Below are positions 25,801 to 42,780 of a DNA stretch of 51,906 nt, piece by piece. How positions within the stretch are numbered: the stretch's first letter is position 1; each line of letters begins with the position of its first letter. Below the pieces are notes generated by a model. It did not search any database. It was not told the DNA's origin and saw only the letters and a program-made list of their open reading frames with translations. Made by a program: the position numbers and the translations under genes. Source of the stretch: Oscillospiraceae bacterium (GTDB lineage: Bacteria; Bacillota; Clostridia; Oscillospirales; Oscillospiraceae); contig JAFWTG010000041.1 of the NCBI GenBank assembly GCA_017519005.1, positions 1 through 51,906 on the forward strand, written 5' to 3'.

Positions 25801-28176
25801 ATGACCAATCTCAAGCGGCTTCTTGCGGTTCTGCTGGTCGTCGTGATGGTTGCCGCTCTGTTCGCAGGCTGCACCGGCGAGACCAAGCCTTCCGACACGA
25901 AACCCCAGGCTGACACCACCCCTGTTGACACGAAGAAGCCTGACGACAGCACCCCCCCTGAAACCACCCCTGCCACCACTGAGCCCGCGCAGCCCAAGAA
26001 CGACACCCTGGTCGTTGCCACCAGCTCCATGGAGCAGAAGTTCAGCCCCTTCTTCTACACCACCGTGTACGACGGAGACATTGCCAATCTGGTTACCGGC
26101 TACCTGCTGAGCTCTGACCGTGAGGGCAACATGCTCCTCAACGCCATGGAGGGTGAGACCCGCGCCTACAACGGCGTCGACTACACCTACTACACCATGG
26201 CCAACTGCGAGGTCACCCAGAACGACGACGGCACCGTTGATTACGACCTGACGATGCGCGACGACATCAAGTTCTCCGACGGCAGCCCCGCCACCATCGA
26301 CGACGTTATCTTCGGCATCTACGTCATGGCTGACCCCACCTATGACGGCTCCTCCACCATCTACTCCATCCCCATCGAGGGCATGGACGAGTACCGCTCC
26401 GGCATGGAAGCCCGCGGCGACGTCATCCTCGCTGCCGGCCCCGACGGCTACACCGAAAACGAGTTCTACACCGAAGAGCAGTACAACGAATTCTGGACCT
26501 ACTACAACGAGAACGCCGGCGCTGATTTCGCCAAGGAAATCTGCGACTACTGCATCGGCCACGGCTACAACGCTCCCGACGACTCCGTCGCCGCCTGCGC
26601 TGCCAACTGGGGCTTTGAGCTGGCTGAAGACGCCGACTACCAGGCCTTCTGGGAAGCCATCGTTGCCGCCTACGACACCGTCGAGGAGGCTGAGGCCACT
26701 GAGTCCGCCGGCTCCGACCGTCTTGGCCTGACCAAGAACGCTCTGGGTGCCGACTACATGGCCGGCGTTGCCACCGGCACCGGCGCCGACAACATCTCCG
26801 GCGTCATCAAGACCGGCGACTACAGCCTGCGCATCCACTGCACCAAGTTCGACGCCACCGCCATCTACAGCATGGGCTTCCCCGTTGCGCCTCTGGCCTA
26901 CTACGGCGACGCCTCCCTGTACAACTACGACGCCAACCAGTTCGGCTTCCCCAAGGGCGACCTCCGCATTGTGAAGGACAAGACCACTCAGCCCATGGGC
27001 TGCGGTCCCTACGTCTACAAGGGCTACGCCAACAGCGTCGCTTCTCTCGAGGCCAACCCCAACTACTTCAAGGGCGAGCCCAAGATCAAGAACGTCAAGT
27101 ATCAGGAATCCGTTGACTCCGACTACATCCCCGGCATCCAGGCCGGCAACTTCGACATCGCTTCTCCCTCTCTGAACGACACTGTCGTGGAGTCCATCAA
27201 GAAGGGCAACTCCAACGGCGAGCTCGAGGGCGACGTCCTCACCACCAAGCTGGTTGACTACCGCGGCTACGGCTACCTGGGCATCAACGGCAACCGCGTC
27301 AGCGTCGGCGGCGACGGCACCAGCCAGGAGTCCAAGTACCTCCGCCTGGCCATCATGACCGTCATGTCCATCTGCCGTGACACCGTCATCGCCTCCTACT
27401 ACGGCGACCGCGCCGCCGTGATCCAGTACCCCATCTCCAACACCTCCTGGGCCGCTCCCCGTCCCACCGACGAGGGCTACCACAACGCCTACTCCCTGGA
27501 CGTGAACGGCGATCCCATCTACACCGACGACATGAGCGAAGAGGATAAGTACGAGGCCGCCACCAAGGCCGCTGCCGCTTACCTCGAGGCCGCCGGCTAC
27601 ACCTTCGGCGAGGACGGCAAGATCACCGCTGCTCCCGAGGGCGCCAAGGGCCTGTCCGAAGAGGACTCCTGGGAAGTCATGATCCCCGGCCAGGGCCAGC
27701 AGGACCACCCCGCCTACGGCATCGCCGTCAAGGCCAAGGAGCTCCTGGGCAACATCGGCTTCGTGATCCGCATCAACGACGTCGGCACCTCCGTCTGGAA
27801 CGCCCAGCTGAACGCCAACACCGCTGATATGTGGGCCGCCGCCTGGCAGTCCAGCGCTGACCCCGACATGTACCAGGTCTACCACAGCTCCAATGCCAAC
27901 GGCCAGGGCACCAACTCCAACCACTACCAGATTCAGGATCCCGAACTGGACGAGATCATTCTCGAGGCTCGTTCCTCCGCTGACAACACCTACCGTAAGG
28001 CCGCTTACAAGGAAGCTCTCGAGATCATCCTCTCCTGGGGCGTTGAGCTGCCTCTGTACCAGAGAAAGGACGCCACCGTCTTCTCCACCGAGCGCGTGAA
28101 CGTTGACACTCTGCCCACCGACCTGACCCCGTTCTACGGCTGGGCTGACGAGATCCAGAACCTGGAGCTCAACTAA
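25801..28176 (+). CDS. Peptide ABC transporter substrate-binding lipoprotein, operon 1
   Basis: This 791-residue SBP_bac_5-family protein captures peptides (or another small solute) outside the membrane. A lipoprotein signal ends at the lipobox FAGC (Cys24). A Thr/Pro/Asp spacer (about 25-62) follows, then the binding fold in normal order, from DTLVVATSSMEQKFSPFFY to WGVELPLYQRKDATVFSTERV near the end. It is longer than typical family members (500-550) because of an acidic insertion near residues 185-325. Codon use is extremely biased, suggesting very high expression. It is followed by two hairpins, then the permeases. Substrate specificity cannot be read from the sequence. Confidence 0.9.
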   Translation: MTNLKRLLAVLLVVVMVAALFAGCTGETKPSDTKPQADTTPVDTKKPDDSTPPETTPATTEPAQPKNDTLVVATSSMEQKFSPFFYTTVYDGDIANLVTGYLLSSDREGNMLLNAMEGETRAYNGVDYTYYTMANCEVTQNDDGTVDYDLTMRDDIKFSDGSPATIDDVIFGIYVMADPTYDGSSTIYSIPIEGMDEYRSGMEARGDVILAAGPDGYTENEFYTEEQYNEFWTYYNENAGADFAKEICDYCIGHGYNAPDDSVAACAANWGFELAEDADYQAFWEAIVAAYDTVEEAEATESAGSDRLGLTKNALGADYMAGVATGTGADNISGVIKTGDYSLRIHCTKFDATAIYSMGFPVAPLAYYGDASLYNYDANQFGFPKGDLRIVKDKTTQPMGCGPYVYKGYANSVASLEANPNYFKGEPKIKNVKYQESVDSDYIPGIQAGNFDIASPSLNDTVVESIKKGNSNGELEGDVLTTKLVDYRGYGYLGINGNRVSVGGDGTSQESKYLRLAIMTVMSICRDTVIASYYGDRAAVIQYPISNTSWAAPRPTDEGYHNAYSLDVNGDPIYTDDMSEEDKYEAATKAAAAYLEAAGYTFGEDGKITAAPEGAKGLSEEDSWEVMIPGQGQQDHPAYGIAVKAKELLGNIGFVIRINDVGTSVWNAQLNANTADMWAAAWQSSADPDMYQVYHSSNANGQGTNSNHYQIQDPELDEIILEARSSADNTYRKAAYKEALEIILSWGVELPLYQRKDATVFSTERVNVDTLPTDLTPFYGWADEIQNLELN

Positions 28177-28216
28177 TCTACGTCCATCTTGCGTAATTCA
28201 TGAAACATAGCGCAGG

Positions 28217-28295
28217 CCGGAGGGGGCCCCGCCCCCTCCGGTTTGCCCAAAAGGGAAGCGCCGATCCCTCTCAGTGAATGATCGGCGCTTTTCTT
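28217..28295 (+). terminator. Two consecutive hairpins after the binding-protein gene
   Basis: CCGGAGGGGG/CCCCCTCCGG followed by TTT (28217-28244), then a classical terminator AGCGCCGATC/GATCGGCGCT followed by TTTCTT (28257-28295). Both lie inside the operon and would limit permease expression relative to the binding protein. Confidence 0.8.
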
Positions 28296-28331
28296 AGCTG
28301 TAAAACAAAGGAAAGAGACGGTGAATCTCAC

Positions 28332-29324
28332 ATGCTGAAGTACTCCCTCAAACGTTTGCTTTACAGCGCGATCATCCTGATCTTCGTCATGTTCATCATC
28401 TATACGCTGATGTACGTGATGCCCGGCAACTACGTGCAGACCAAGGCCATGGAGCTTGCTACGAAGCCCGGCGCCACTAAGAGCGCCGACGAATGGCTGG
28501 AGGACCTGAACCGGCAGTACGGTATGGATCAGGGCTTGATTAAGGGCTACTTTACCTGGCTCAAAAGCGCTGTGCATTTGGATTTTGGCGACAGCTGGAA
28601 GTGGAACAAGGCCTGTACGCAGGTGTTCTCCGAGCGTATCTGGTACAGCTTCGCGCTGAACGTCGTCACCATGTTCCTGGAAATTCTCATTGCCATCCCC
28701 CTCGGCATCCATGCGGCCAGAAACCAGTACGGTTTCTCCGACTATTTCGCCACCGTGTTTTCCATGGTATGTATTTCCATGCCATCCTTCTTCCTTATAA
28801 CTGTCCTGAAGCTGGTCTTCGCCGTGAAGCTCAAATGGGTAGACCTTACCGGCATGATAGACCCACGCATACACGACAGCCTTTCTGACTTTGGAAAATT
28901 CCTCGATATCGCAAAACACTACGTTTTGCCGGTCATAACCATCACGGTCATCTCCATCGGCAGCCTGATGCGTTATACTCGTACAAATATGCTGGAGGTC
29001 CTGTCCTCCGACTACATCCGCACCGCCCGGGCCAAGGGCGTGCCGGAGCGGAAGGTCATCTACTCCCACGCCTTCCGCAACACGCTGATCCCCCTGATCA
29101 CCATTCTGGGCGGCTCCCTGGTGAGCCTCTTCTCCGGCGCCATCATCACCGAGCAGCTCTTCGGTCTCACCGGCATCGGCCAGGCCTCCTATCAATCCAT
29201 GGTGGTGGGCGACATCCCCTTCACCATGTTCTATCTGATGTTCATTTCCATCCTGACGCTTCTGGGCAACCTGCTGGCGGATCTGCTCTACGCCGCGGCC
29301 GACCCCCGCGTCCGTCTGTCCTAA
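28332..29324 (+). CDS. Peptide ABC transporter permease, DppB/OppB type, operon 1
   Basis: This 330-residue inner-membrane permease has a first helix at about 9-29, a soluble loop (about 30-105) and five further helices. The ABC-binding EAA loop is in the form EVLSSDYIRTARAKGVPERKVIYSHAFRNTLIPL (spread over about 220-255). The C-terminal GAIITEQLFGLTGIGQASYQSM is typical of DppB. The length is normal. I start at ATG 28332 instead of the upstream ATG at 28278, because the latter lies within the terminator stem. The next permease starts 12 bases downstream after AAGGAGG. Confidence 0.92.
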   Translation: MLKYSLKRLLYSAIILIFVMFIIYTLMYVMPGNYVQTKAMELATKPGATKSADEWLEDLNRQYGMDQGLIKGYFTWLKSAVHLDFGDSWKWNKACTQVFSERIWYSFALNVVTMFLEILIAIPLGIHAARNQYGFSDYFATVFSMVCISMPSFFLITVLKLVFAVKLKWVDLTGMIDPRIHDSLSDFGKFLDIAKHYVLPVITITVISIGSLMRYTRTNMLEVLSSDYIRTARAKGVPERKVIYSHAFRNTLIPLITILGGSLVSLFSGAIITEQLFGLTGIGQASYQSMVVGDIPFTMFYLMFISILTLLGNLLADLLYAAADPRVRLS

Positions 29325-29336
29325 GGAGGTGCGCTC

Positions 29337-31577
29337 ATGGCTTCTTATAATCTGAATGAGATCCTGAAAAAGCGCGCCGCCCTGAAGAACAAGGACGAGA
29401 AGAAGGAAATGGATCTGGGCGACACCGCCCGCGTCAAGGTCCTGTCCCCCATGCGCCAGGTCATGAAGCGCTTTATGCGCAACCGTCTGGCCATCTTCGG
29501 CACCGTGACCCTGATCATCATGTTCGCCTTCGCCTTCCTGGGTCCCCTGTTCTACGCCTACGGCCAGGACGAGGTCATCTACAAATACGACAGCATGATC
29601 GCACCCTATGCCTTCGTGCAGCAGCGCACCGAATACACCGGCTATACCCTGAATCCGGAGATCAAGTACAACCGTTCCGCCGTGGCCAAGACCAACTCCA
29701 ACATCAACAGCATGGTCAGGGCCGGGCAGACCAGCATGGTCTTCCAGGGGCAGGACGGAAAGCTCTACGTGCTCAACAACGAGGCCGAGAGCACCTACAC
29801 CCTGTCCCAGGGCGAGCCCGCGAAGGCGGCCGCCTTCGGCTCCGGCCCCGTGAAGGTCGGTCTCTACGACGGCGTCAAGAAGACGGTGAAGTACGAGCAC
29901 GAGGACCTGGGCGAGGCCTTCCGTCAGGCCGCGCAGGATAACTGCAAGGGCAAGGGCGGCAGCTTTGAGTTCGAAGGCAAGACCTACAGCTTTAAGCCCG
30001 GCTCCGCCAAAAAGACCTTCGACATCTTCGCGGAGGCCGACGAGAGCTTCCGCTACTACGGCGAGAACCTGGGCACGGCCTTTGAGACCGCCGCGCAGGC
30101 GGCCAAGGTGGGCGAGATCTTCGAGTTCAACGGCAGGAAATACGCGGTCCTCTCCCCCGAGAAGGACAACTATGAGGTCCACACTCTGGATGGGATCGAG
30201 CCCTTCATGGTCTACACGCAGTACGCCTTCGACACCTGCGTCACGTCCCTGCCCCTGAGCGACTCCTTCAAGCTGGGCGCTCTGACGGCGATTTACGGCG
30301 AGGGCAGCTTCGAGGCCGAGGCCATCGTCAACACGGAGGCCTTCCAGAAGGAGCTTGCCGATAAGGCCATCGCGGCCCAGCAGAACACCCACGTGGACGT
30401 GAATCCCGTCGGGGAGGACGAGCCCGCTCCGGAAGCCCAGGATACCGAGGCTCCCGCGGAGACCGGCGAAGGGGAAGTCAGTCCCGAGGGCGCGGTCTTC
30501 GTCAACGCCAGATTCACCGTCGCTCCCTCTGCGGAGCGGGCGGGCGTGCTGGTCATCTCCACCGAGGACGGCACCCCCTACGCCGAGCTGAACACCCTGG
30601 TGGCCCGCCGCTCCAACGGCAACGACACCATGGACCTGGATCTGAAGCATGCCGTGCGCGATCACATCATGCACATGCTGGAGACCAATGCCCAGTCCGA
30701 GAATCTGACCTATCAGATCCCCCGGCAGGACGACAAGGGCAGAAACGTCTACGACGAGGAAGGCAAGCTCCTCTACGAGGAGTCCGAAATGACCGTTGCC
30801 CGCCGCACCGCGAACGAGTTCGTCGTCAACGCCGAGCAGACCCGTCAGTTCATCGATAAGTACGCAAGCCCGTCCTCGGCCCACGTCATGGGCACCGACG
30901 GCGACGGCTTCGACGTTCTGGCCCGTATCATGTACGGCGGCCGGATATCCCTGATGGTCGGCTTCGTGGTCGTGTTCCTGGAGTGCTTCCTGGGCATCAT
31001 CATGGGCGGACTGGCCGGCTTCTTCGGCGGCTGGGTGGACAACCTGGTCATGCGTCTGGTGGATATCTTCTACTGCCTGCCCTTCATGCCCATTATGATC
31101 ATCGTCGGCGCCATGATGGACGCCAGCCGCATGGACGTGTACATCCGCCTCTTCGTCCTGATGGCCGCCATGGGCATCATGGGCTGGGCCGGCATCGCCC
31201 GTCTGGTCCGCGGCCAGATCCTGTCCCTGCGCGAGCAGGAGTTCATGACCGCCGCCGAGGCCACCGGCCTTCCCACCACCCGCCGGATCTTCCGCCACCT
31301 GGTTCCCAACGTCATGCCGCAGCTGATCGTCTCCGCCACCATGGGCCTGGGCTCCACCATCCTTTCCGAGTCCACCCTGTCCTTCCTGGGCCTGGGCGTC
31401 AAGCACCCCATGGCCACCTGGGGCTCGATGATCAACTCCGTTGCCAGCGCCGCTGCCATGGAGCAGTACGCTTACATCTGGATCCCTGTGGGTCTGCTGA
31501 TCTGCTTCACCGTTATCGCCTTCAACTTCGTGGGCGACGGTCTGCGTGACGCCTTCGACCCCAAGGCCAAGCGATAA
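29337..31577 (+). CDS. Peptide ABC transporter permease, DppC/OppC type, with a giant extracytoplasmic insert
   Basis: At 746 residues this is more than twice the usual DppC length (about 300). The first helix (about 53-75) and the C-terminal permease core (about 530-745, with LSLREQEFMTAAEATGLPTTRRIFRHLVPNVMP as the EAA loop) are standard. Between them lie about 440 extra residues that must face outside. They include an internal duplication (LGEAFRQAAQ...SFEFEGKTYSF at about 189-220 and LGTAFETAAQ...IFEFNGRKYAV at about 242-272) and an acidic Pro/Glu/Ala linker (about 360-385). The inserted region may contact the binding protein or the substrate. That is inference. The gene is intact and in operon order. 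Confidence 0.9.
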   Translation: MASYNLNEILKKRAALKNKDEKKEMDLGDTARVKVLSPMRQVMKRFMRNRLAIFGTVTLIIMFAFAFLGPLFYAYGQDEVIYKYDSMIAPYAFVQQRTEYTGYTLNPEIKYNRSAVAKTNSNINSMVRAGQTSMVFQGQDGKLYVLNNEAESTYTLSQGEPAKAAAFGSGPVKVGLYDGVKKTVKYEHEDLGEAFRQAAQDNCKGKGGSFEFEGKTYSFKPGSAKKTFDIFAEADESFRYYGENLGTAFETAAQAAKVGEIFEFNGRKYAVLSPEKDNYEVHTLDGIEPFMVYTQYAFDTCVTSLPLSDSFKLGALTAIYGEGSFEAEAIVNTEAFQKELADKAIAAQQNTHVDVNPVGEDEPAPEAQDTEAPAETGEGEVSPEGAVFVNARFTVAPSAERAGVLVISTEDGTPYAELNTLVARRSNGNDTMDLDLKHAVRDHIMHMLETNAQSENLTYQIPRQDDKGRNVYDEEGKLLYEESEMTVARRTANEFVVNAEQTRQFIDKYASPSSAHVMGTDGDGFDVLARIMYGGRISLMVGFVVVFLECFLGIIMGGLAGFFGGWVDNLVMRLVDIFYCLPFMPIMIIVGAMMDASRMDVYIRLFVLMAAMGIMGWAGIARLVRGQILSLREQEFMTAAEATGLPTTRRIFRHLVPNVMPQLIVSATMGLGSTILSESTLSFLGLGVKHPMATWGSMINSVASAAAMEQYAYIWIPVGLLICFTVIAFNFVGDGLRDAFDPKAKR

Positions 31578-31590
31578 GGAGGTTTTTGAA

Positions 31591-32832
31591 ATGGCGAACG
31601 ACGAAATGAAGAAAACCTCCCAGGTCGGGGAAGCCAAGGCCAAGGAGCCCAAGAAGAAAACTTCTTACATCTCCGCCAAGGAATCCCGCCGCATCACCAA
31701 GTTCAACCGCAAGATCACCAAGAAGCTGGAGCACGACCGCGAGGAGGCCGGCAAGGACCCCGCCTACTACACCACCAGGATGCGCGACCCCAACAACGTG
31801 GTGGAGTTCGACAACATGTGCACCTACTTCTTCTCCGACGTGGGCACCGTCAAGGCCGTGGACGGCATCTCCTTTGACGTCCCCAAGTGCTCCACCGTGG
31901 GCGTCGTGGGCGAGTCCGGCTGCGGCAAGTCCGTCACCTCTCTGTCGCTGATGCAGCTGCTGCAGCGGCCCTCCGGCCAGACGGTCGGCGGCGAGATCCG
32001 CCTCAACATGGGCGACGGCACCGCGCTGAACATCGTCAACACGCCCGTGGAGAAGATGCAGGAGCTCCGCGGCAACTACATCTCCATGATCTTCCAGGAG
32101 CCCATGACCGCCCTGAACCCGGTGTTCCGCATCGGCCGCCAGGTCAACGAGGTCATCGAGCTCCACAACCCCGAAATGTCCGAGGAAGAGGTCAAGGCCC
32201 GCACCATGGAAATGCTGGAGCTGGTCGGCATCGCCAACAAGGAGGGCGTCTATGAGATGTACCCCCACGAGCTCTCCGGCGGCATGCGGCAGCGTGTCTG
32301 CATCGCCATCGCCCTGGCCTGCCGGCCCGGCCTGATCATTGCAGACGAGCCCACCACCGCCCTGGACGTGACCATCCAGGCCCAGATCCTGGACCTGCTC
32401 CAGAACCTGAAGGACAAGATCAACTCCTCCATCATGCTGATTACCCACGACCTGGGCGTCGTGGCCGGCATGGCGGACTACGTGGTGGTCATGTACGCGG
32501 GCCGCGTCATTGAGAAGGGCACCGCCGACGACATCTTCCACCATCCCGCCCACCCCTACACCATCGGCCTGATGAAGTCCAAGCCGGTGGTCGGCAAGAA
32601 GGTGGAGGCGCTCTACAACATCCCCGGCGCGGTTCCCAACCCGGTGGATATGCCCAACTACTGCTATTTCCGGGACCGCTGCGAAATGCACTGCGAGCAG
32701 TGCGCCGGCAAGTACCCCCCCGAAATCCGGATCAGCGATACCCACGTGGTCTCCTGCTACCGCTACATCGATGAGGGCACGGTCCTGGGCTACCCGAAAA
32801 CTGTGGACGTGGAGGGATTGTTAAATGGCTGA
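31591..32832 (+). CDS. Peptide ABC transporter ATPase, DppD/OppD type, operon 1
   Basis: A 413-residue ATP-binding subunit starting at ATG 31591 (AAGGAGG upstream). The Walker A motif GESGCGKS (about 107-114), Q-loop [10 protein letters not shown] (about 167), signature LSGGMRQR (about 228-235), Walker B IIADEPTT and His-loop ITHDLG are all present. The C-terminal OppD/DppD domain has a cysteine cluster ([14 protein letters not shown], about 358-371) typical of the iron-sulfur-type peptide ABC ATPases. An unusual Lys/Glu-rich extension of about 70 residues precedes the domain. The stop overlaps the next start by eight bases. Confidence 0.93.
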
Positions 32833-33943
32833 GAAAACTGTACAGGCCCACGACGCCTATTCCGCGGAGCTCTTCAAGGACGCGGAAAAGAATCCCGAAA
32901 ACCTCCTGGTGGTCAAGAACCTGAAGAAGTACTTTCCCATCAAGTCCAGCTTCTTTAAGATGACCATTGGCAACGTCAAGGCCGTGGACGGCGTCTCCTT
33001 CGTCATCAAGAAGGGCACCACCATGGGTCTCGTGGGCGAGTCCGGCTGCGGCAAGTCCACCATCGGCCGGACCATCCTCCGGCTGATCGAGAAGACGGAG
33101 GGCGAGGTCTTCTTCAACGGCGAAGACATCTTCAAGCTCTCCAAGGCGGAGCTGCGGGCCCACCGTCCCAACATCCAGATCATCTTCCAGGACCCCTATT
33201 CCAGCCTCTCTCCCAGACTTCCCGTGGGCGAGATCATCGGCGAGGCCGTCCGGGAGCACAACATCGTGCCGAAGGAGGAGTTCGACGATTACATCACCCG
33301 CGTCATGGAGGCCTGCGGCCTGGCGGAGTACCACAAGGACCGCTATCCCCATGAGTTCTCCGGCGGCCAGCGTCAGAGAATCTGCATCGCCCGCGCCCTG
33401 GCCCTGAACCCGGACTTCATCCTCTGCGACGAGCCCGTCTCCGCGCTGGACGTGTCCATCCAGGCCCAGATCATCAACCTGCTGCGGGACCTGCAGAAGG
33501 AATTCGGCCTGACCTACCTCTTCATCTCCCACGACCTGTCCGTGGTGGAGCACATCTCCGACACCGTCGGCGTCATGTACCTGGGCAACCTAGTGGAGTA
33601 CGCGGAGACCGACAAGCTCTTCTCCAAGCCGCTGCACCCCTACACCCAGGCCCTGTTCTCCGCCATACCGGTGCCGGACCCCGACTACAAGATGAACCGC
33701 ATCATCCTGGAGGGCAGCATCCCCTCTCCCGCCAATCCCCCCAGCGGCTGCAAGTTCCACACCCGCTGCAAGGACTGCATGGAGATCTGCAAGTACTGCC
33801 GTCCCGATTTCGCGGAAATTGAGCCGGGCCACTACTGCGCCTGCCACCTCTACAACGATCCCGCCCGCAGCGCGGAGCTGTCGAAAATCATGGACGAAAT
33901 GAAGCGGGCTGAGGCCGAAAAGGCGGAAGCGAAGAAGAAATAG
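32825..33943 (+). CDS. Peptide ABC transporter ATPase, DppF/OppF type, operon 1
   Basis: The 372-residue partner ATPase has Walker A GESGCGKS (about 69-76), FQDPYSSLSPRL (Q-loop, about 122-133), SGGQRQR (about 179-185), Walker B ILCDEPVSALD and ISHDLS. A C-terminal Cys cluster (CKFHTRCKDCMEICKYC, about 308-324) again suggests a metal site. The last about 20 residues are Lys/Glu/Ala-rich. It forms the heterodimeric ATPase pair with the preceding gene. The TAG stop is part of a family A repeat. Confidence 0.94.
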   Translation: MAEKTVQAHDAYSAELFKDAEKNPENLLVVKNLKKYFPIKSSFFKMTIGNVKAVDGVSFVIKKGTTMGLVGESGCGKSTIGRTILRLIEKTEGEVFFNGEDIFKLSKAELRAHRPNIQIIFQDPYSSLSPRLPVGEIIGEAVREHNIVPKEEFDDYITRVMEACGLAEYHKDRYPHEFSGGQRQRICIARALALNPDFILCDEPVSALDVSIQAQIINLLRDLQKEFGLTYLFISHDLSVVEHISDTVGVMYLGNLVEYAETDKLFSKPLHPYTQALFSAIPVPDPDYKMNRIILEGSIPSPANPPSGCKFHTRCKDCMEICKYCRPDFAEIEPGHYCACHLYNDPARSAELSKIMDEMKRAEAEKAEAKKK

Positions 33944-34682: not shown

Positions 34683-36911
34683 ATGAAGAACCTCAAGAAG
34701 ATCCTTGCTCTTCTGCTGGTCGTCGCGATGGTTGCCGCCATGTTCGTCGGCTGTAACGAGACCACCCAGCCCAGCGAGTCCGGCAAGGACACCACCCCCG
34801 CTACCCAGCCCGCGAAGCCCGATGACACCCAGAAGCCCGACGACACCACCCCGGCTACCGAGCCCGTTGAGCCCGAGGAGTACGAAGGCTTCGTGAGCGA
34901 GCTCGACGCAGACGGCAACTACGTCCGCGCCGACGACGAAGAGATCTATGAGATGATCTACGGCCGCTTTGCTGAGCTGACTGCTGCTGCTCGCGAGGCA
35001 GAGACCAACGATCAGCGCTTCGTTCTCTACGCCCAGGCTGAGGCTGAGCTCCTCGACACCGCCACCATGATCCCCAACACCACCCAGGGCGGCGCCTACA
35101 CCATCTCCCGCATCGCCCCCCGTACCGTTCCCTACGTCCAGTGGGGCAACGACGACGACCGTCTGCACAGCATGGTCATCTCCGACGAGTTCCTGACCCC
35201 CGACGAGCGCAACGAGCTGCTCGACCAGTGGGCCAAGGCTCTGGGCGGAGAGGGCACCTATGACCCCGCCGCCTACCTGACCGGCAAGGGCCACAAGCTG
35301 CTGAGCGACTACACCACCACCTTCTCCACCGCTCCCGTTACCCTGGACTGGCTGAACACCTCCTCTCAGTCCGACACCGAGATCACCGTCAACTGCGTGG
35401 AAGGCCTGGTTGAGTACGACAACCTGAGCCAGCTGCAGCCCGCTCTGGCCGAGTCCTGGGAAGTCTCCGAAGACGGCCTGACCTACACCTTCCATCTGCG
35501 TGACGGCGTGAAGTGGTACACCGCTGAGGGTACCGAGTACGCTCCTGTCACCGCCAACGACTTCGTCGCCGGCTTCCATCACATGATGGACACCAAGGCT
35601 GGTCTGGAAGGCCTGGTTGGCGCTGGCGCCGCTGAGATCGTCGGCACCGACGCTTACCTGTACGAGGGCGGCTCCTTCGACAACGTCGGCTACAAGGCCC
35701 TCGACGAGCACACCCTGCAGGTCACCCTGAACAAGCCCGTTCCCTTCTTCATGACCATGCTCACCTACTCCATCTTCCTGCCCATCTGCGAGCCCTTCTA
35801 TCTGGCTCACGGCGGCGTCTATGGCGCGGATGAGTACGAGGCTGCCGTTTCTGATACCGACAAGTACACCTACGGCTCCAACACCGACGTTTCCTCCCAG
35901 GTCTACTGCGGTCCGTTCCTGCTGCAGAAGCTGCAGGCCGACTCCGAGATTCTCTGCGTGAAGAACCCCAACTACTACAAGGCTGACACCGTGACCCTGA
36001 ACTCCATCAAGTGGGTCTACGACGCTGGCGAGAACCCCAAGGCCACCTACGAAGACACCGTCAAGGGCGTCTACGCCGGTGTGACCCTGGGCCAGGCTTC
36101 CGGTCTGCTGGATATGGCCAAGGCTGACGGCAACTTCGAGAAGTATGCCTACATCTCCGACACCACCTCCACCTCCTACTTCGGCGGTCTGAACGTCAAC
36201 CGCGGCACCTTCGCTCTGGAGTCCGGCGCTGCCACCTCTCCCAAGAACGAGCAGCAGAAGGCTGACACCGTCACCGCTCTGAACAACAAGAACTTCCGTA
36301 AGGCCATGCAGCACGCCTTCGACAAGAAGACCGTGAACGCCACCTCCCGCGGCGAAGACCTGGCCGAGACCAACCTCCGCAACATGTACACCCACCCCGA
36401 GTTCGTGAAGCTCGAGAACGACACCACCGATGCTGACGGCCACACCTTCCCCGCCGGCACCTTCTACGGCGAGATGGTCCAGTACTACTGCGACCAGCTG
36501 GGCTGCAAGGTCATCTGCAAGGACGGCGTTGACGGCTGGTACAATCCCACCGCCGCCAAGGAGTACCTCGAGGCCGCCAAGGCTGAGCTGGGCGATCTGG
36601 TCAGCTTCCCCATCCAGATCGACGTCGTGTACTACTCCCCCTCCGATTCTCAGACTGCGCAGGCCAACGCCTACAAGTCCGTCATCGAGGGCACTCTGGG
36701 CACCGAGAACGTCGTCGTGAACCTGATCGAGACCACCACCGCTGACGACTTCTATGCCTGCGGCTACCGCGCTCCCAACGGCGAGGCCGGCAACTTCGAT
36801 ATGTTCTACGGCTCCGGCTGGGGTCCCGACTACGGCGATCCCTGCACCTACCTCAACACCTTCGATCACGAGATCGACGGCTACATGCTGAAGGTCGAGG
36901 GCCTGTTCTAA
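34683..36911 (+). CDS. Peptide ABC transporter substrate-binding lipoprotein, apparently circularly permuted, operon 2
   Basis: The 742-residue protein has a lipoprotein signal (lipobox FVGC, Cys24) and a Thr/Pro linker (about 25-62). Next comes a segment (about 75-190: AEAELLDTATMIPNTTQGG, YTISRIAP, then LTPDERNELLDQWAKAL) that in ordinary OppA-type proteins forms the C-terminal end. The usual N-terminal start (TFSTAPVTLDWLNTSSQ, LVEYDNLSQLQPALAESWEV) appears only at about residue 206. The protein stops shortly after GWGPDYGDPCTYLNTF, where ordinary members continue for 120-150 residues into exactly the segment found here at the front. Termini of this fold are close in space, so a permuted protein could fold. 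Highly biased codons suggest strong expression. Confidence 0.85.
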   Translation: MKNLKKILALLLVVAMVAAMFVGCNETTQPSESGKDTTPATQPAKPDDTQKPDDTTPATEPVEPEEYEGFVSELDADGNYVRADDEEIYEMIYGRFAELTAAAREAETNDQRFVLYAQAEAELLDTATMIPNTTQGGAYTISRIAPRTVPYVQWGNDDDRLHSMVISDEFLTPDERNELLDQWAKALGGEGTYDPAAYLTGKGHKLLSDYTTTFSTAPVTLDWLNTSSQSDTEITVNCVEGLVEYDNLSQLQPALAESWEVSEDGLTYTFHLRDGVKWYTAEGTEYAPVTANDFVAGFHHMMDTKAGLEGLVGAGAAEIVGTDAYLYEGGSFDNVGYKALDEHTLQVTLNKPVPFFMTMLTYSIFLPICEPFYLAHGGVYGADEYEAAVSDTDKYTYGSNTDVSSQVYCGPFLLQKLQADSEILCVKNPNYYKADTVTLNSIKWVYDAGENPKATYEDTVKGVYAGVTLGQASGLLDMAKADGNFEKYAYISDTTSTSYFGGLNVNRGTFALESGAATSPKNEQQKADTVTALNNKNFRKAMQHAFDKKTVNATSRGEDLAETNLRNMYTHPEFVKLENDTTDADGHTFPAGTFYGEMVQYYCDQLGCKVICKDGVDGWYNPTAAKEYLEAAKAELGDLVSFPIQIDVVYYSPSDSQTAQANAYKSVIEGTLGTENVVVNLIETTTADDFYACGYRAPNGEAGNFDMFYGSGWGPDYGDPCTYLNTFDHEIDGYMLKVEGLF

Positions 36912-37131: not shown

Positions 37132-37216
37132 TCGCGTTTCGCGATACTATTCAGAAAAGGAGGCTGTCATTGGTGCGGCGCCGGGTTCCGGCTTCGCCTC
37201 ATGATTGAACAGATCT

Positions 37217-38797
37217 ATGAAAAAGTACATGTTCAAGCGCATCCTCTTCTCGATCTTTTCACTGCTGGTCGTGGTCATGCTGGTCATGCTTCTGGTCTAC
37301 TCCCTGATTGAACGCAACGTTATCTTTCAGCAGGACGACGTCTGGAACAAGAGAAACAACAACGACCGCAGAATGTACGAGTATGCGCAGTTCCAAAAGT
37401 ATGGATATTTAAATTACGTTGACTATACCAGCTTCCTCCGGGAGAAGTACATGTCTAAATACGGCGAGAGCTACGACAAGGAAGCTGATTTCGCGACGGA
37501 CCGCGGCGTCATCCAGAAGCCTGACGACGTTTGGCAGAACCCCACGGTTCAGGAGTTCAAGGCCAAATATGAGGCCCAGGGCTATAAGCTTGACTACATG
37601 GAGCCCGTCCGCTACAAGTCCGGCAAGCTGAAGGCCGGCGGCAACGGCTATCTCGTGGCTGTCCAGGAGAAGAGCGTGGTCCTCCGCCTGTGGGACTACA
37701 TGAAGAACTTCTTCACCATCGAGACCTCTAAAGACGTGGACGATCCGAATCTGACCGAGCGCTACGTCCACTTTGAGAAGGACCCCTATTCCGGGCTCTT
37801 TGCACTCACCGGCTCCGGCACGACCCACAAGTATCTGCTGTACTTCGACAGCCGCTTCCCCTTCATCCATCAGAACTTCCTGCGCCTGAATCTCGGCACC
37901 TCCTACACCACCTACCGCGGCTCGGAGATCACCCAGGTTATCTCCAGCCCCACCGGCGTAGCGGAAAAGGTCAGGCAGCAGTACCCCGCCATGGTCGGCA
38001 CCGACGAGTACGTGGAGACTGCCATCGATTTCCACTCCGTCACCTACAATCCCAACACCAGCGAGGCGGAGCTGGCCCAGTTCGGCGACAATTACAGCTC
38101 CTACACCACCCGGAAGACCGGCCTCTCCATGCTGGAAACCTCCTTCATCATCGGCATTATCTCCCTGATTATCGCCTACTCCCTGGGCCTGCCCCTGGGC
38201 ATCCTGGTGGCCCGCCGCAAGGACAAGCTGGCCGATAAGCTGGGCAACGCCTACATCATCTTCATCATGGCCGTGCCTTCCCTGGCTTATATCTTCCTCT
38301 TCGCGGCCATCGGCACTACGCTCTTCAACCTGCCCTACAAGTTCGCGAACTCCACGAACAAAGCGCTGGCCTTCGTGCTGCCCGTCATTTCTCTGGCTCT
38401 GCCGCAGATCGGCAGCTTGATGAAGTGGATGCGCCGCTATATGATCGACCAGATGAACTCCGACTACGTGAAGTTCGCCCGGGCCGAGGGCCTGTCCGAG
38501 AAGGAGATCTACCGGATCCACATTTCCCGGAACGCTCTGATCTATCTGGTCCACGGCATCCCCTCCAGCATTCTGTTCTGCCTGACCGGCGCCATCATGA
38601 CCGAGCGTGTCTACGGCGTGCCGGGCGTCGGCAACCTGCTGACCACCGCCATCAACAAGCACGACAACGGCATCATCGTGGCCTGTACCGTGTTCTACAC
38701 CTCGCTGTCCATCCTGGCGGTTATCCTGGGCGACGTGCTGCTGGCCAAATACGATCCGAGAATTTCCCTGTCCAGTGAAGGAGGTGGCGGACGATGA
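37217..38797 (+). CDS. Peptide ABC transporter permease, DppB/OppB type, with a 200-plus-residue insert, operon 2
   Basis: At 527 residues this is well above the DppB norm (about 310-340). The first helix (about 7-29) is followed by about 270 residues of soluble, charged and aromatic sequence before the core helices begin (about 303-325). The usual loop is about 70-80 residues. The core has GLPLGILVARRKDKLADKL, the EAA loop MNSDYVKFARAEGLSEKEIYRIHISRNALIYL (about 412-443) and TGAIMTERVYGVPGVGNLL, all typical. The start at ATG 37217 has no good ribosome-binding site. TTG 37205 is an alternative. The stop overlaps the next start (ATGA). Confidence 0.88.
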   Translation: MKKYMFKRILFSIFSLLVVVMLVMLLVYSLIERNVIFQQDDVWNKRNNNDRRMYEYAQFQKYGYLNYVDYTSFLREKYMSKYGESYDKEADFATDRGVIQKPDDVWQNPTVQEFKAKYEAQGYKLDYMEPVRYKSGKLKAGGNGYLVAVQEKSVVLRLWDYMKNFFTIETSKDVDDPNLTERYVHFEKDPYSGLFALTGSGTTHKYLLYFDSRFPFIHQNFLRLNLGTSYTTYRGSEITQVISSPTGVAEKVRQQYPAMVGTDEYVETAIDFHSVTYNPNTSEAELAQFGDNYSSYTTRKTGLSMLETSFIIGIISLIIAYSLGLPLGILVARRKDKLADKLGNAYIIFIMAVPSLAYIFLFAAIGTTLFNLPYKFANSTNKALAFVLPVISLALPQIGSLMKWMRRYMIDQMNSDYVKFARAEGLSEKEIYRIHISRNALIYLVHGIPSSILFCLTGAIMTERVYGVPGVGNLLTTAINKHDNGIIVACTVFYTSLSILAVILGDVLLAKYDPRISLSSEGGGGR

Positions 38798-39768
38798 ACG
38801 AAAAGAAAAAGGTACCGCAGTCCAGCGAGGATCTGTTCCAATTCATCGACTCCAACTCCATCTCCTCGGAAAAGATCGTCGCGCCCCGCTACTCCTATTG
38901 GAAGTCCGTCTTCCGCGTTTTCTTCCGCAAGAAGATCAATATCTTCCTGATCGCCGCCTTCGTGTTCATTCTGCTGGTGGCCTTCATCATGCCCAACTTC
39001 TGGAAGTACGATCCCAATGAAAACGTCACCAACGCCGCCACCTTCAACCTCAGCCCCGCCAAGGCTCTGAAGTACTTCAACAACGGCGCCTTCTCCCTGA
39101 AGTGGTGCCTGGGCACCGGCGCTCTCGGCAACTCCATCTTCTACGGCATCGTGGCCTCCTCCCAGACCTCTCTGCTGCTGGCCATCATCTGCGCGGCCAT
39201 CAACATGAGCATCGGCATCGTCATCGGCGCCGTCTGGGGCTACTCCAAGAAGCTGGACGCCGTCATGCTGGTGATCTACAACATCATCGCCAACGTGCCC
39301 TACATCCTGCTGATCTCCGTTCTGGTCTACGTCATCGGCTCGGGCTTCTGGAGCTTCATCTTCGCCCTGACGGTGACAGGCTGGCTGGGCATCGCGTACT
39401 TCTTCCGCACGCAGGTCATGGTCATCCGCGACCGCGAGTACTCCCTGGCCTCCCGCTGCCTGGGCACGCCCGTCAACCGCGTGATCTCCAAGAACATCCT
39501 GCCCTTCCTGACTTCCGTTATCGTGACCCTGCTGGCCACGGAGCTGCCCTCCTACATCAACATGGAGGTCTTCCTCTCCTACATCGGCGTCGGTCTGAGC
39601 GCCACCGTCCCCACCCTGGGCCGTATGATCCAGCAGGGACAGACCGCCTTCATGACCTTCCCCCACGCCTTCTGGCCGCCGGTGGCCGTGGCCTCCGCCA
39701 TCACGATCATCCTCTATCTCCTGGGTCAGAACCTGGCTGACGCCTCTGACCCGCGGACCCACATGTAA
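38794..39768 (+). CDS. Peptide ABC transporter permease, DppC/OppC type, operon 2
   Basis: A 324-residue permease of normal length. The first helix is at about 50-69, the remaining helices at about 115-310. The EAA loop reads REYSLASRCLGTPVNRVISKNILPFLTSV (about 213-241). VFLSYIGVGLSATVPTLGRMI matches the DppC C-terminal region. It forms the membrane pore with the preceding, oversized permease. Note the contrast with operon 1, where the C-type subunit carries the insert and the B-type is normal. The ATPase gene follows after AAGGAGG. Confidence 0.93.
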   Translation: MNEKKKVPQSSEDLFQFIDSNSISSEKIVAPRYSYWKSVFRVFFRKKINIFLIAAFVFILLVAFIMPNFWKYDPNENVTNAATFNLSPAKALKYFNNGAFSLKWCLGTGALGNSIFYGIVASSQTSLLLAIICAAINMSIGIVIGAVWGYSKKLDAVMLVIYNIIANVPYILLISVLVYVIGSGFWSFIFALTVTGWLGIAYFFRTQVMVIRDREYSLASRCLGTPVNRVISKNILPFLTSVIVTLLATELPSYINMEVFLSYIGVGLSATVPTLGRMIQQGQTAFMTFPHAFWPPVAVASAITIILYLLGQNLADASDPRTHM

Positions 39769-39780
39769 GGAGGTGCGACG

Positions 39781-41826
39781 ATGGAAAACAACGATAAGAA
39801 AGTCCTGCTCTCCTTAAAGAACGTCGTCGTCAAGTTCAACGTCCGCGGCCGCATCCTGACCGCCATCCGCAACGTCTCTCTGGACGTGTACGAGAACGAG
39901 TCTCTGGCCATCGTGGGCGAGTCCGGCTCCGGCAAATCCGTTCTGACCAAGACCTTTGCGGGCATGCTGGATTCCAACGGCTTCATCCCCGAGGGCACCA
40001 TCATCCTTTCCGACGACGAAATCTCCCGGACGGAAGTGAACCTGACCGGCGCCAACAAGAGCATGTTCGACCGGGTCTACAAGTTCCTCAACAAGCACTC
40101 CAGGCTGGAGCGCGGCGCCGCGGAATACCGTGCCATCCGCGCCAAGGAGGAGGAGATCCGCCACGCCAAGTCTCTGACCGAGGCTGAGGAGTCCGACTTC
40201 GCTCTGCGCATCAAGAGCGTCAAGGACGACTCCGTGGACCTGAACAACTACCTCATGACCCTGGACAAAAAGGCCGACGCGGACGAGTTCGTCAAAACCG
40301 AGGCCCGCATCAAGGAACTGGAAAATCAGCTGGAGTCCCTGGAGAAGGAGAAGGTCGCTGTGGCGAAGAAGCGCGCCCTCGACTATAAGAACCATCCCGA
40401 CCGGGCCGCCAAGGACCAGGAGCTTCTGAAGCAGCTCAACGCCGAGCGCGATCAGAAGATCGCCACAGCCGACAAGGAGGGCAACCCCGAGGGCCTCTCC
40501 GACGAGACCCTGCAGCGCAACAAGATTCTGGCCTATGAGGTCGTTCTCTCCATTGCCCGCTATCCCTGGAAGGACCGGACCCGCTTCCTTGCCAGGCTGA
40601 ACAAGGCCTTCAAGGTCGCCATGTCCGAGGGCGCCGACCTGGACAACCCCGACGTGCGCAACAAGCTCTTTGAGGTGGCCGGCTTCCGGGTGGAGTACCG
40701 CTCCTTTGACCCCGGCACCGAGCTCACCCTCAACGAGAACGGCAGCTACCGCTTCGCGGCTCCCACCGAGTCTGTCGAAGAGACGGGCAGCTACCGCTTC
40801 GAGGGCGGCGTCCTGACGCTGACCGACAAAAACGGCAGACAGATCGTCGGCCAGGGGAATCCGATCCGGCTGAGCTACCCGATCTCCGAGGAAGCGAACC
40901 TGGCCGGCTCCTACGCCATCCCGGCGGACAGCCTTGGGAATTCCGGGCCGAAGGAGCTGAAATCCCAGGCTCAGACCCTCCACGGCTACGCCATCATCGA
41001 CTGCGCCAAGGTCAAGTATACCAACGACTGGCAGCGCATTCGCGGCACCCGGATCGCCACGGTCTTCCAGGACCCCATGACCTCTCTGAACCCCATCATC
41101 CCCATCGGCAAGCAGATCATGACGGTCATTCTGAAGCACCAGAAGTGCTCCAAGGCCGAGGCCCGGCAGCGCACCATCGACATCATGGGCAAGGTTGGCA
41201 TTCCCGATCCGGAGAGCCGCTTTGACGACTATCCCTTCGAGTACTCCGGCGGTATGCGCCAGCGTATCGTCATTGCCATCGCCCTGTCCTGCCAGCCCAA
41301 GATCCTGATCTGCGACGAGCCCACCACGGCGCTGGACGTCACCATCCAGGCGCAGATTCTCCAGCTGATCAAGGACCTGCAGAAGGACCTGGGCTTCACC
41401 ACCGTCTACATCACCCACGACCTGGGTGTCGTGGCCAACGTGGCTGAGCGCGTGGCCGTGCTGTATGCCGGTCAGATCGTGGAGATGGGCACCGTCGAGG
41501 AGATCTTCTACGAGCCCAAGCACCCCTATACCTGGGCCCTGCTCTCCTCTCTGCCCCAGCTCTCCGAGCGCGGCAGCGACCTGTTCTACATCCCCGGCAC
41601 GCCGCCCTCCCTGTATAACAAGCTGGTGGGCGACGCCTTCGCGCCGAGAAGCCAGTACGCCATGGCCATCGACCTGAAGGAGGAGGCCCCGATGATCCAG
41701 GTCAGCCCCACCCACTTTGCCAAGACCTGGCTGCTGGATCCCAGAGCGCCCAAGACCGAGCCCCCTGCAAACATCCAGAATCTTCACGAGAAGATCAAGA
41801 AGACCTACGTCAGCTTTGAGCAGTAA
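39781..41826 (+). CDS. Peptide ABC transporter ATPase, DppD/OppD type, with a 320-residue insertion, operon 2
   Basis: At 681 residues this is twice the family length. Walker A GESGSGKS (46-53), Q-loop Gln430 in [10 protein letters not shown], signature SGGMRQR (489-495), Walker B LICDEP (Asp512, Glu513) and His546 in ITHDLG are all intact. The extra sequence lies between Walker A and the Q-loop, which are normally about 50 residues apart and here about 375. The insertion holds a Lys/Glu-rich coiled coil (about 100-245), a helical part (about 245-305), and a short beta segment with [10 protein letters not shown] and [18 protein letters not shown] (about 317-355) that resembles small lipocalin-like domains. 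Reading frame and codon use continue smoothly through it. Confidence 0.9.
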
Positions 41827-41838
41827 GGAGGCAGCATT

Positions 41839-42780
41839 ATGGAAAATACCGAGAAAAAAGTATTGTTGTCCATCCAGCATCTGGACGTGGTCTTCGGTCA
41901 CGGCAAAAAGGCCTTCAAGGCTGTCAGCGACGTGAGCTTCGACATCTATAAGGGCGAGACCCTGTCTCTGGTGGGCGAGTCCGGCTCCGGCAAGACCACC
42001 ATCGGCCGCGCCATCGTCCGGATCAACCCCTGCTCCGCCGGCGCCATCTACTACGACGGCAAGAAGATCTCCGGCAAGCTCTCCCGCAAGGACGACCGCG
42101 AAGTCATCCGGAAGATCCAGATGATCTTCCAGGACCCCGCCGCCTCCCTGAACGAGCGCGCCACCATCGAGTACATCATCTCCGAGGGCCTGTACAACTT
42201 CCATCTGTACAAGGACGAGAAGGACCGCATGGCGAAGATCGAGAACGTGGTCAAGGAGGTGGGCCTGCTGCCCGAGCATCTGACCCGTTATCCCCACGAG
42301 TTCTCCGGCGGCCAGCGTCAGCGTGTCGGCATGGCCCGCTCCTTCGTCATGGAGCCCGAGTTCATCGTGGCCGACGAGCCCATCTCCGCGCTGGACGTGT
42401 CCATCCGCGCCCAGGTCCTGAACCTGATGAAGAAGTTCCAGCAGGAGCGCGGTCTGACCTATCTCTTCATCGCCCACGACCTCTCCATCGTCCGCTTCAT
42501 CTCCGACCGCATCGTGGTTATCTACAAGGGCCGGATCATGGAGATTGCCGAGACAGAAGAGCTCTTCGCCTACCCGCTGCACCCCTACACCAAGTCCCTG
42601 ATCTCCGCCATCCCCATTCCCGATCCCAGAATCGAGAAGGAGAAGAAGCTCTTCATCTACGACAAGAGCCTGCACGACTACTCCGTGGAGCAGCCCGAGC
42701 TGGTGGATATCGGCAACGGCCACATGGTCTACGGCAGCCCCTCCGAAATCGAGAAGTACAAGAAGATCCGCTTCGGCTAA
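41839..42780 (+). CDS. Peptide ABC transporter ATPase, DppF/OppF type, operon 2
   Basis: The 313-residue partner ATPase is of ordinary length: Walker [10 protein letters not shown] (about 45-53), Q-loop [12 protein letters not shown] (about 98-109), SGGQRQRV (about 156-163), Walker [13 protein letters not shown] and IAHDLS. The C-terminal region is shorter than in the operon 1 homologue and lacks its cysteine cluster. AAGGAGG precedes the start. It pairs with the enlarged ATPase encoded just upstream. Confidence 0.94.

Follow-up and report, generated by a model that had tools for sequence, protein, structure and literature searches.

A re-ordered AmiA/AliC-type peptide-binding lipoprotein in Oscillospiraceae: evidence for natural circular permutation in an oligopeptide ABC importer

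Introduction

The best matches to the protein described here among solved structures, both by sequence and by fold, are AmiA, AliB, AliC and AliD, the binding proteins of the pneumococcal Ami importer, which belong to cluster C of the SBP_bac_5 family. In AmiA, W504 and D507 of a motif hold the N-terminus of the bound peptide, and lobe 2 of AliD is formed by residues 297-582 (PMC11192437).

Circular permutation has been described in ABC binding proteins of other kinds. Tp0684, also named TpMglB-2, a glucose-binding lipoprotein of Treponema pallidum, is a natural circular permutation for which the authors proposed the term 'type Ic / cluster Bc', with tethering as a possible reason (PMC4990184). 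The glycine betaine-binding proteins OpuAC and ProX display circular-permutation relations that were found by structure comparison (PMC2395249). In literature accessible as full text, with subscription papers outside this scope, no permuted member of the peptide-binding family was found, and a 2025 preprint on permutation search does not mention ABC transport, solute-, substrate- or peptide-binding proteins, or periplasmic proteins. An earlier note on this DNA had stated that no permuted member was described; this holds for the peptide-binding family as far as was found, but not for ABC binding proteins as a whole.

Here we describe a lipoprotein gene in a 51,906 nt contig of an Oscillospiraceae bacterium (GenBank assembly GCA_017519005.1, contig JAFWTG010000041.1), termed the window, whose product is very probably a natural circular permutant among the substrate-binding lipoproteins of Ami-type oligopeptide ABC importers.

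Results

The window gene and its protein segments

The gene and the parts of its product are as follows.

34683..36911, + strand: ORF of the putative permuted peptide-binding lipoprotein, ATG start, 742 aa
34683..34754, + strand: signal peptide with lipobox FVGC, Cys24 being the predicted lipid-bearing residue (from sequence)
34755..34904, + strand: low-complexity linker rich in Thr, Pro, Asp and Glu, residues 25-74 (from sequence)
34905..35240, + strand: front segment, residues 75-186, corresponding to the C-terminal part of AliC/AmiA (by sequence comparison)
35241..35309, + strand: new joining linker between the old C-terminus and the old N-terminus, residues 187-209
35310..36908, + strand: core, residues 210-742, from the old N-terminus through lobe 2 (by sequence and model comparison)
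36816..36842, + strand: GWGPDYGDP motif, residues 712-720

The segment that closes ordinary relatives, with AEAELL at residues 119-124, YTISRI at 139-144 and the QW-containing helix ERNELLDQWAKA at 175-186, is found ahead of the usual N-terminal start YTTTFSTAPVTLDWLN (residues 210-225), which is followed by LVEYDNL at 242-248. The chain ends at residue 742, 22 residues past GWGPDYGDP. This arrangement, together with the lipoprotein signal, had been proposed in the earlier note from inspection of the sequence, and it was found as described. With domain borders taken from PMC11192437, the front segment comprises the end of lobe 2, the return crossover, the last part of lobe 1 and the first half of the C-terminal helix. 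The joining linker has no counterpart in the aligned ordinary-order operon mates.

Relatives with the permuted order vary at their N-terminal ends. In 67 of 95 such proteins a lipobox was found by script, and the linker that follows it is 3-61 residues long (median 42). A Sec signal without a lipobox, as judged by a home-made pattern, is present in 18-19 of the 95, and 9 rows are unclear; one protein (L135) was scored as a non-lipoprotein by the script, yet displays a lipobox visible by eye. Thus tethering as the sole reason for the permutation is weakened. Loci with a Sec signal and no lipobox by this pattern are L099-L104, L108, L117, L119, L127, L131, L132, L138, L150 and L151.

Swapped order relative to AliC and AmiA

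When the window protein was compared with sequences of solved structures, AliC matched in two stretches in swapped order: residues 210-730 align with AliC 14-496 (266 bits), and residues 99-186 align with AliC 527-616 (24.7 bits, i-E 6e-5). AmiA shows the same swapped pattern more weakly, the second stretch scoring 18.7 bits (i-E 0.0038). As a positive control, an ordinary-order operon mate from the genus is colinear with AliB (86-706 to 7-608).

A profile was also built from the front segments of permuted proteins only (31 rows). At E < 0.001 it matches solely C-terminal parts of the four Ami/Ali proteins: AliC 511-617 (E 1e-12), AliB 514-609 (1e-8), AmiA 520-623 (2e-8) and AliD 503-610 (3e-7). 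The next rows are DppE 451-489 (0.027), also near the C-terminus, and an unrelated protein (0.13). These E values, with the next rows only at 0.027 and 0.13, exclude chance similarity of the front, and the alignment of the front to the relatives' C-terminal part, which the earlier note had made a point of, is borne out. Ami/Ali proteins have a C-terminal extension beyond OppA; the front profile reaches chain residues 609-623, and of the extra helix the alignment takes in just the first half. The loss of the second half is not due to the permutation, since it is also missing in ordinary-order proteins of the same bacterial family.

When the window protein was re-rotated and aligned with four ordinary relatives, no part was missing or doubled. 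The end GYMLKVEGLF falls on GDMLxYSGI of the relatives and the front continues from there, and the helix ERNELLDQWAKA falls on their C-terminal end. At the old termini there is an additional linker of about 20-25 residues. The permutation proposed in the earlier note is thus upheld by the swapped AliC/AmiA matches and by the completeness of the rotation. At the level of sequence comparison it is confirmed that the window protein is an AmiA/AliC-type peptide-binding lipoprotein in which the usual C-terminal stretch of about 110 residues precedes the usual start.

Domain models do not make the swap visible. The Pfam SBP_bac_5 model matches with 170.5 bits against a cut-off of 32.4, at residues 251-730 and model positions 2-363 of 368; two other Pfam matches on the window protein are both below their cut-offs. 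As the match covers 251-730 only and the moved part lies outside the model, SBP_bac_5 is blind to the swap, and the swap is not seen in the window protein with either the Pfam or the NCBIfam models. The two hits in swapped order that the earlier note expected are therefore obtained against AliC and AmiA but not with the SBP_bac_5 profile. The ordinary N-to-C segment order of the SBP_bac_5 family and of cluster C is not that of the window protein, and because of the swapped order it is filed here as a permuted variant of both.

Predicted fold, lobes and ligand residues

Residues 75-742, modeled with AlphaFold2 together with 56 permuted proteins, give one confidently predicted fold (pLDDT 93.1, pTM 0.89). 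Model positions 132-668, the core, superimpose on AmiA 33-533 with 1.8 A over 494 residues, and the predicted structure displays the two-lobe fold of three domains that characterizes cluster C. The earlier note had anticipated a single closed two-lobe fold with its new termini about where they are found, and the model is in agreement. It should be noted that Foldseek and VIA-align are sequential aligners and did not place the front segment; its position in three dimensions is a prediction from the confidence of the model.

The borders published in PMC11192437 and the match ends, combined through an inferred offset in numbering, place the break within lobe 2, near AliD residues 526-530; the window protein connects the old termini, which belong to lobe 1. 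The break being inside lobe 2, the new, lipid-anchored N-terminus would emerge from the other lobe.

Trp713 and Asp716 (W639 and D642 in alignment numbering) are the counterparts of AmiA W504 and D507 as these are given in PMC11192437. Both are invariant in the permuted proteins aligned, 12 of 12 in one set and 56 of 56 in another. The structural matches listed are cluster C proteins. No sugar-binding rows are among them, and no sugar-binding Pfam family matches the window protein at E up to 1; neither absence excludes anything.

Occurrence in other genomes

In a sample of 24 genomes of the genus, 10 have the permuted protein whole and one (G020) has it split over two contig ends. Three (G001, G002 and G023) have the ordinary order, and the other 10 display short or weak matches only. 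Identity to the window protein is 39-87% over the 12 genus rows aligned. In the family sample, permuted matches over nearly the whole model are found at no fewer than 27 places in at least 25 of 300 genomes, with one place (G123) beginning at a contig edge. The order sample has the permuted protein in at least 24 of 394 genomes at E up to 1e-90, and the phylum sample in at least 2 of 398, these being the window's own genome and G809; G958 has the ordinary order. Among plasmids, nine records show partial matches at E up to 1e-20 and none covers 80% of the query.

Of 256 related loci in public species genomes, the best 80 were considered: 79 have the permuted order, and the remaining one (L158) is cut off before the front. 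The 79 include L123, which has an in-frame stop, L156, in which 17 front residues lie at a contig edge, some that are cut at the C-terminal end, and some that come from one genome or repeat loci of the genus sample. Since the query was itself permuted and these loci are the top 80 of 256, the count speaks for the consistency of the form and not for the frequency of the ordinary order. By title, the records are bins of Oscillospiraceae, Lachnospiraceae, Erysipelotrichaceae, Christensenellaceae, Spirochaetales and further groups, with rumen or gut as a frequent source. All these public records are titled as metagenome bins or uncultured, and since bin names may be wrong, the wide taxonomic spread is a lead. 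At one locus (L123, 1904-3961) a permuted gene with one in-frame stop is followed by four transporter genes; this may be a pseudogene or a sequencing error.

For front and core, dN/dS is 0.24-0.46 in three pairs, with 0.19-0.67 for the joining linker. Front and core are under purifying selection. The re-ordered form is very likely a real variant that has been kept.

The permuted module is also found at the ends of some large surface proteins. The gene at L038 6704-10840 (- strand), which equals L136 5844-9980, encodes a protein of 1379 aa that combines LRR_5 repeats with three SLH domains and has a complete permuted module at its C-terminus; no transporter genes were found behind this gene. 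An SLH protein of at least 825 aa with the module at its end is at L039 8851-11325 (- strand), and another SLH protein with a terminal permuted module is at L120 2-2374, on a 3256-base contig binned as Victivallales and possibly mis-binned. Three genomes have SLH proteins of this type. A different arrangement is seen at L152 109-2691, an 861 aa frame in which an N-terminal part of 200 residues, with no Pfam match at E up to 0.01, precedes the permuted module. No transporter genes were found downstream of L152, and the same isolate has an operon copy at L155.

The operon and exchange of cassettes

The genes downstream in the window are as follows.

37205..38797, + strand: permease 1, AmiC-like, with a large extra part before BPD_transp_1 (BPD_transp_1 match)
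38794..39768, + strand: permease 2, AmiD-like (BPD_transp_1 and OppC_N matches)
39781..41826, + strand: ATPase 1, AmiE-like, 681 aa, with a lineage-specific insertion (ABC_tran and oligo_HPY matches)
40024..40992, + strand: insertion of ATPase 1, between Walker A region and Q loop (by alignment, profile and model)
41827..42780, + strand: ATPase 2, AmiF-like (ABC_tran and oligo_HPY matches)

The operon thus has the two permeases and two ATPases that characterize Ami/Ali, and the order permease 1, permease 2, ATPase 1, ATPase 2 is found after most permuted genes. Where more than 6 kb of downstream sequence is available (related loci and the window), 61 of 64 loci have the complete set of four transporter genes behind the permuted gene; none was found at L136 and L152, and at L147 no permease 1 was found. 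In three species of the genus (G001, G002 and G023) an operon of this kind begins with an ordinary-order gene. A seventh ordinary locus, L212 in G958, has no such operon behind it, except for one distant ATPase match.

Comparison of the window around 25801-33943 with L043, L044 and L046 shows two peptide-importer operons in tandem; species that are alike in the first differ in the second, which varies as an entire cassette. The second permease of the upstream operon (29325-31574) is about 750 aa long, and its residues ~88-556, between OppC_N and BPD_transp_1, have no Pfam match at E up to 0.01. The upstream binding protein (25801-28170) was considered as a donor and rejected: this SBP_bac_5 protein has the ordinary order, and AppA, rather than Ami/Ali, is nearest to it.

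One site, directly 3′ of the upstream peptide-importer operon, is occupied by differing cassettes within the genus. G023 has neighbors 92-93% identical to those of the window and yet an ordinary-order cassette; G022 has neighbors about 90% identical and yet a distant permuted cassette; and G019 has distant neighbors with a permuted cassette close to that of the window. This mismatch suggests that whole cassettes have been exchanged at the site 3′ of the upstream importer operon, which looks like an exchange point.

An insertion in ATPase 1 of permuted operons

Permuted operons have in common an insertion of ~230-240 aa in ATPase 1, and the window copy has about 82 aa more. Judged by frame length, ATPase 1 has 583-770 residues in 81 of 81 permuted operons in which ATPase 2 also follows, and 359-399 residues in 6 ordinary-order operons, L212 being outside the six. 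The insertion itself was aligned in 6 permuted and 3 ordinary ATPases, and separately in 43 permuted ones. No convincing Pfam match to it was found (best E 0.041, below the cut-off). Residues 90-297 of the window ATPase, within the insertion, are predicted to form long helices (block-mean pLDDT 87-97), with a low-confidence prediction for the extra ~82 residues of the window copy. The model of the whole ATPase 1 is weak (pLDDT 74.3, pTM 0.65), and the 50 Foldseek matches listed for it, nearly all ABC ATPases, are uninformative on the insertion.

A profile of the insertion finds 26 of the 394 genomes of the order sample, including all 24 with the permuted protein. In the other two the ATPase gene lies ~1.9 kb (G646) and a few bases (G385) from a contig end. 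The permuted profile gives weaker partial matches elsewhere in G646 and none in G385. With the ATPases so near contig ends, these two genomes neither support nor break the link between permutation and insertion.

Origin of the permuted form

A whole-chain tree was made of 127 proteins set in ordinary order (103 permuted and 24 ordinary), with incomplete permuted rows and three frames that have no front match left out, and it was midpoint-rooted. The permuted proteins form one group (SH-aLRT 99), which adjoins nine ordinary proteins, including Ami-type ones of the same bacterial family. A tree of the core only (82 rows, with 58 of the 103 permuted rows picked by hand) also has one permuted group, at SH-aLRT 91, under the 95 mark, with two deep subgroups within it. 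Both are quick trees for which the tree program gave long-branch warnings. Permease trees separate permuted from ordinary operons with support of 100/100, there being only 3 ordinary rows. From the single permuted group in both trees, it is likely, as far as the sequences can tell, that the permutation arose once and that the cassette then spread.

Permuted genes usually come about through tandem duplication, after which the outer parts are lost, and this route, with an in-frame duplication and both outer parts lost, is a plausible origin here. No frame with two core copies, as a duplication intermediate would have, was found among the 142 listed frames, which include repeats of the same gene. 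The 1379 aa and 825 aa frames were considered as intermediates and rejected, as they encode the SLH proteins described above (one with LRR_5), each with a single permuted module at its end.

Discussion

Alternative explanations

Several other explanations of the data should be considered. An assembly artefact, in which two binding-protein genes or fragments were misjoined, might be raised because the window is from a draft genome of 141 contigs. However, the same order recurs in 79 of the best 80 related loci from many projects, in most cases with the operon behind it. Misassembly is thus rejected on the strength of independent assemblies, with next to no chance of being correct, and the check on related genomes proposed in the earlier note comes out against it. 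A chimera is unlikely but has more in its favor. The front would then be the tail of some other, paralogous binding-protein gene, placed before a truncated gene, with the same fold reached by convergence, and an idea of this type has been raised for MglB-2 (PMC4990184). The two AliC matches are very unequal in strength (24.7 bits for the front against 266 bits for the core), partly from length, and the tail of a sister paralogue would look alike. On the other hand, front and core both point to one narrow Ali/Ami group, and relative to ordinary relatives the chain is rotated with neither gap nor overlap.

It is also quite improbable that independent events at one loop gave rise to the permutation repeatedly. 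The support of 91 in the core-only tree does not reach 95 and there are two deep permuted subgroups, but these share the break, a similar C-terminal ending and the long ATPase, and the whole-chain support is 99. That the permuted protein now serves as a surface receptor or scavenger rather than as a transport component is very improbable. The modules of L038/L136 and L039 stand behind SLH or LRR_5 domains and have no transporter genes behind them where this is visible, and that of L120 is also behind a surface domain, on a contig too short to show transporter genes. Against this, most copies head a transporter operon (61/64), and the peptide-gripping Trp and Asp are kept in 56 of 56 proteins aligned.

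A natural circular permutation of the Ami-type binding protein thus remains, with high confidence, the preferred explanation. According to the sequence matches, the chain begins inside what is lobe 2 of an ordinary AmiA/AliD protein and continues to the old C-terminus in lobe 1; the new linker leads into the old N-terminus, and the chain ends 22 residues past GWGPDYGDP. With this break position, linker and end point, the entire ordinary chain is present in rotated form. On folding it is predicted to give a single two-lobe protein, with the lipid tether presumably on lobe 2 and not on lobe 1. Trp713 and Asp716 would grip the peptide N-terminus, and the peptide would be passed to the permeases encoded alongside. 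The trees point to a single origin, probably in an ancestor within Clostridia, and probably by in-frame tandem duplication with both outer parts lost, after which the protein, its own permeases and the ATPase with the helical insertion would have spread together in a cassette of five genes.

Wherever an operon could be checked, rotation and insertion go together (81 permuted operons with the insertion, 6 ordinary ones without it). This raises the possibility, put forward tentatively and with considerable doubt, that the permuted cassette is an importer with changed docking of the binding protein or changed ATP coupling, in which the tether has moved from lobe 1 to lobe 2, the former chain ends have become an internal link and the ATPase has gained an insertion.

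Comparison with known systems

OpuAC and ProX are small-molecule binders of another cluster. They resemble the present case as an instance of circular permutation among ABC binding proteins, but their relation is not that of two alternatives in one kind of operon (PMC2395249). The likeness to TpMglB-2 is closer, since it too is a permuted binding lipoprotein of an ABC system and has relatives among spirochaetes and Gram-positive gut bacteria; it differs in having a type I sugar fold, another break and a fourth lobe crossing (PMC4990184). From the position of the break, the permuted peptide protein should keep the two crossings of the ordinary fold.

To our knowledge, there are few natural cases in which a single genus has both a permuted and an ordinary version of one binding protein at the head of like operons. 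Here close relatives carry either form with its own permeases, so that a direct comparison is possible, and it makes testable the role of the membrane-attachment site and of chain direction in a binding-protein-dependent importer. There is also an annotation blind spot, in that the SBP_bac_5 domain model calls the permuted protein normal.

As in Ami/Ali, the operon encodes two permeases and two ATPases, the Trp and Asp for the peptide N-terminus are present, and there is an N-terminal lipobox; the permuted protein would appear to bind and deliver oligopeptides as AmiA does. Unlike in Ami/Ali, the chain is rotated, its termini are in lobe 2 and not in lobe 1, a linker of ~23 residues joins the old ends, and the first half of the Ali C-terminal helix is internal. 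The AmiE-like ATPase of the permuted operons differs in its insertion. Thus the permuted protein belongs to the family by its content, and its chain order makes it a variant. Far from being a lone oddity, it represents a permuted lineage that is established within the Ami-type family and is linked to an unusual ATPase.
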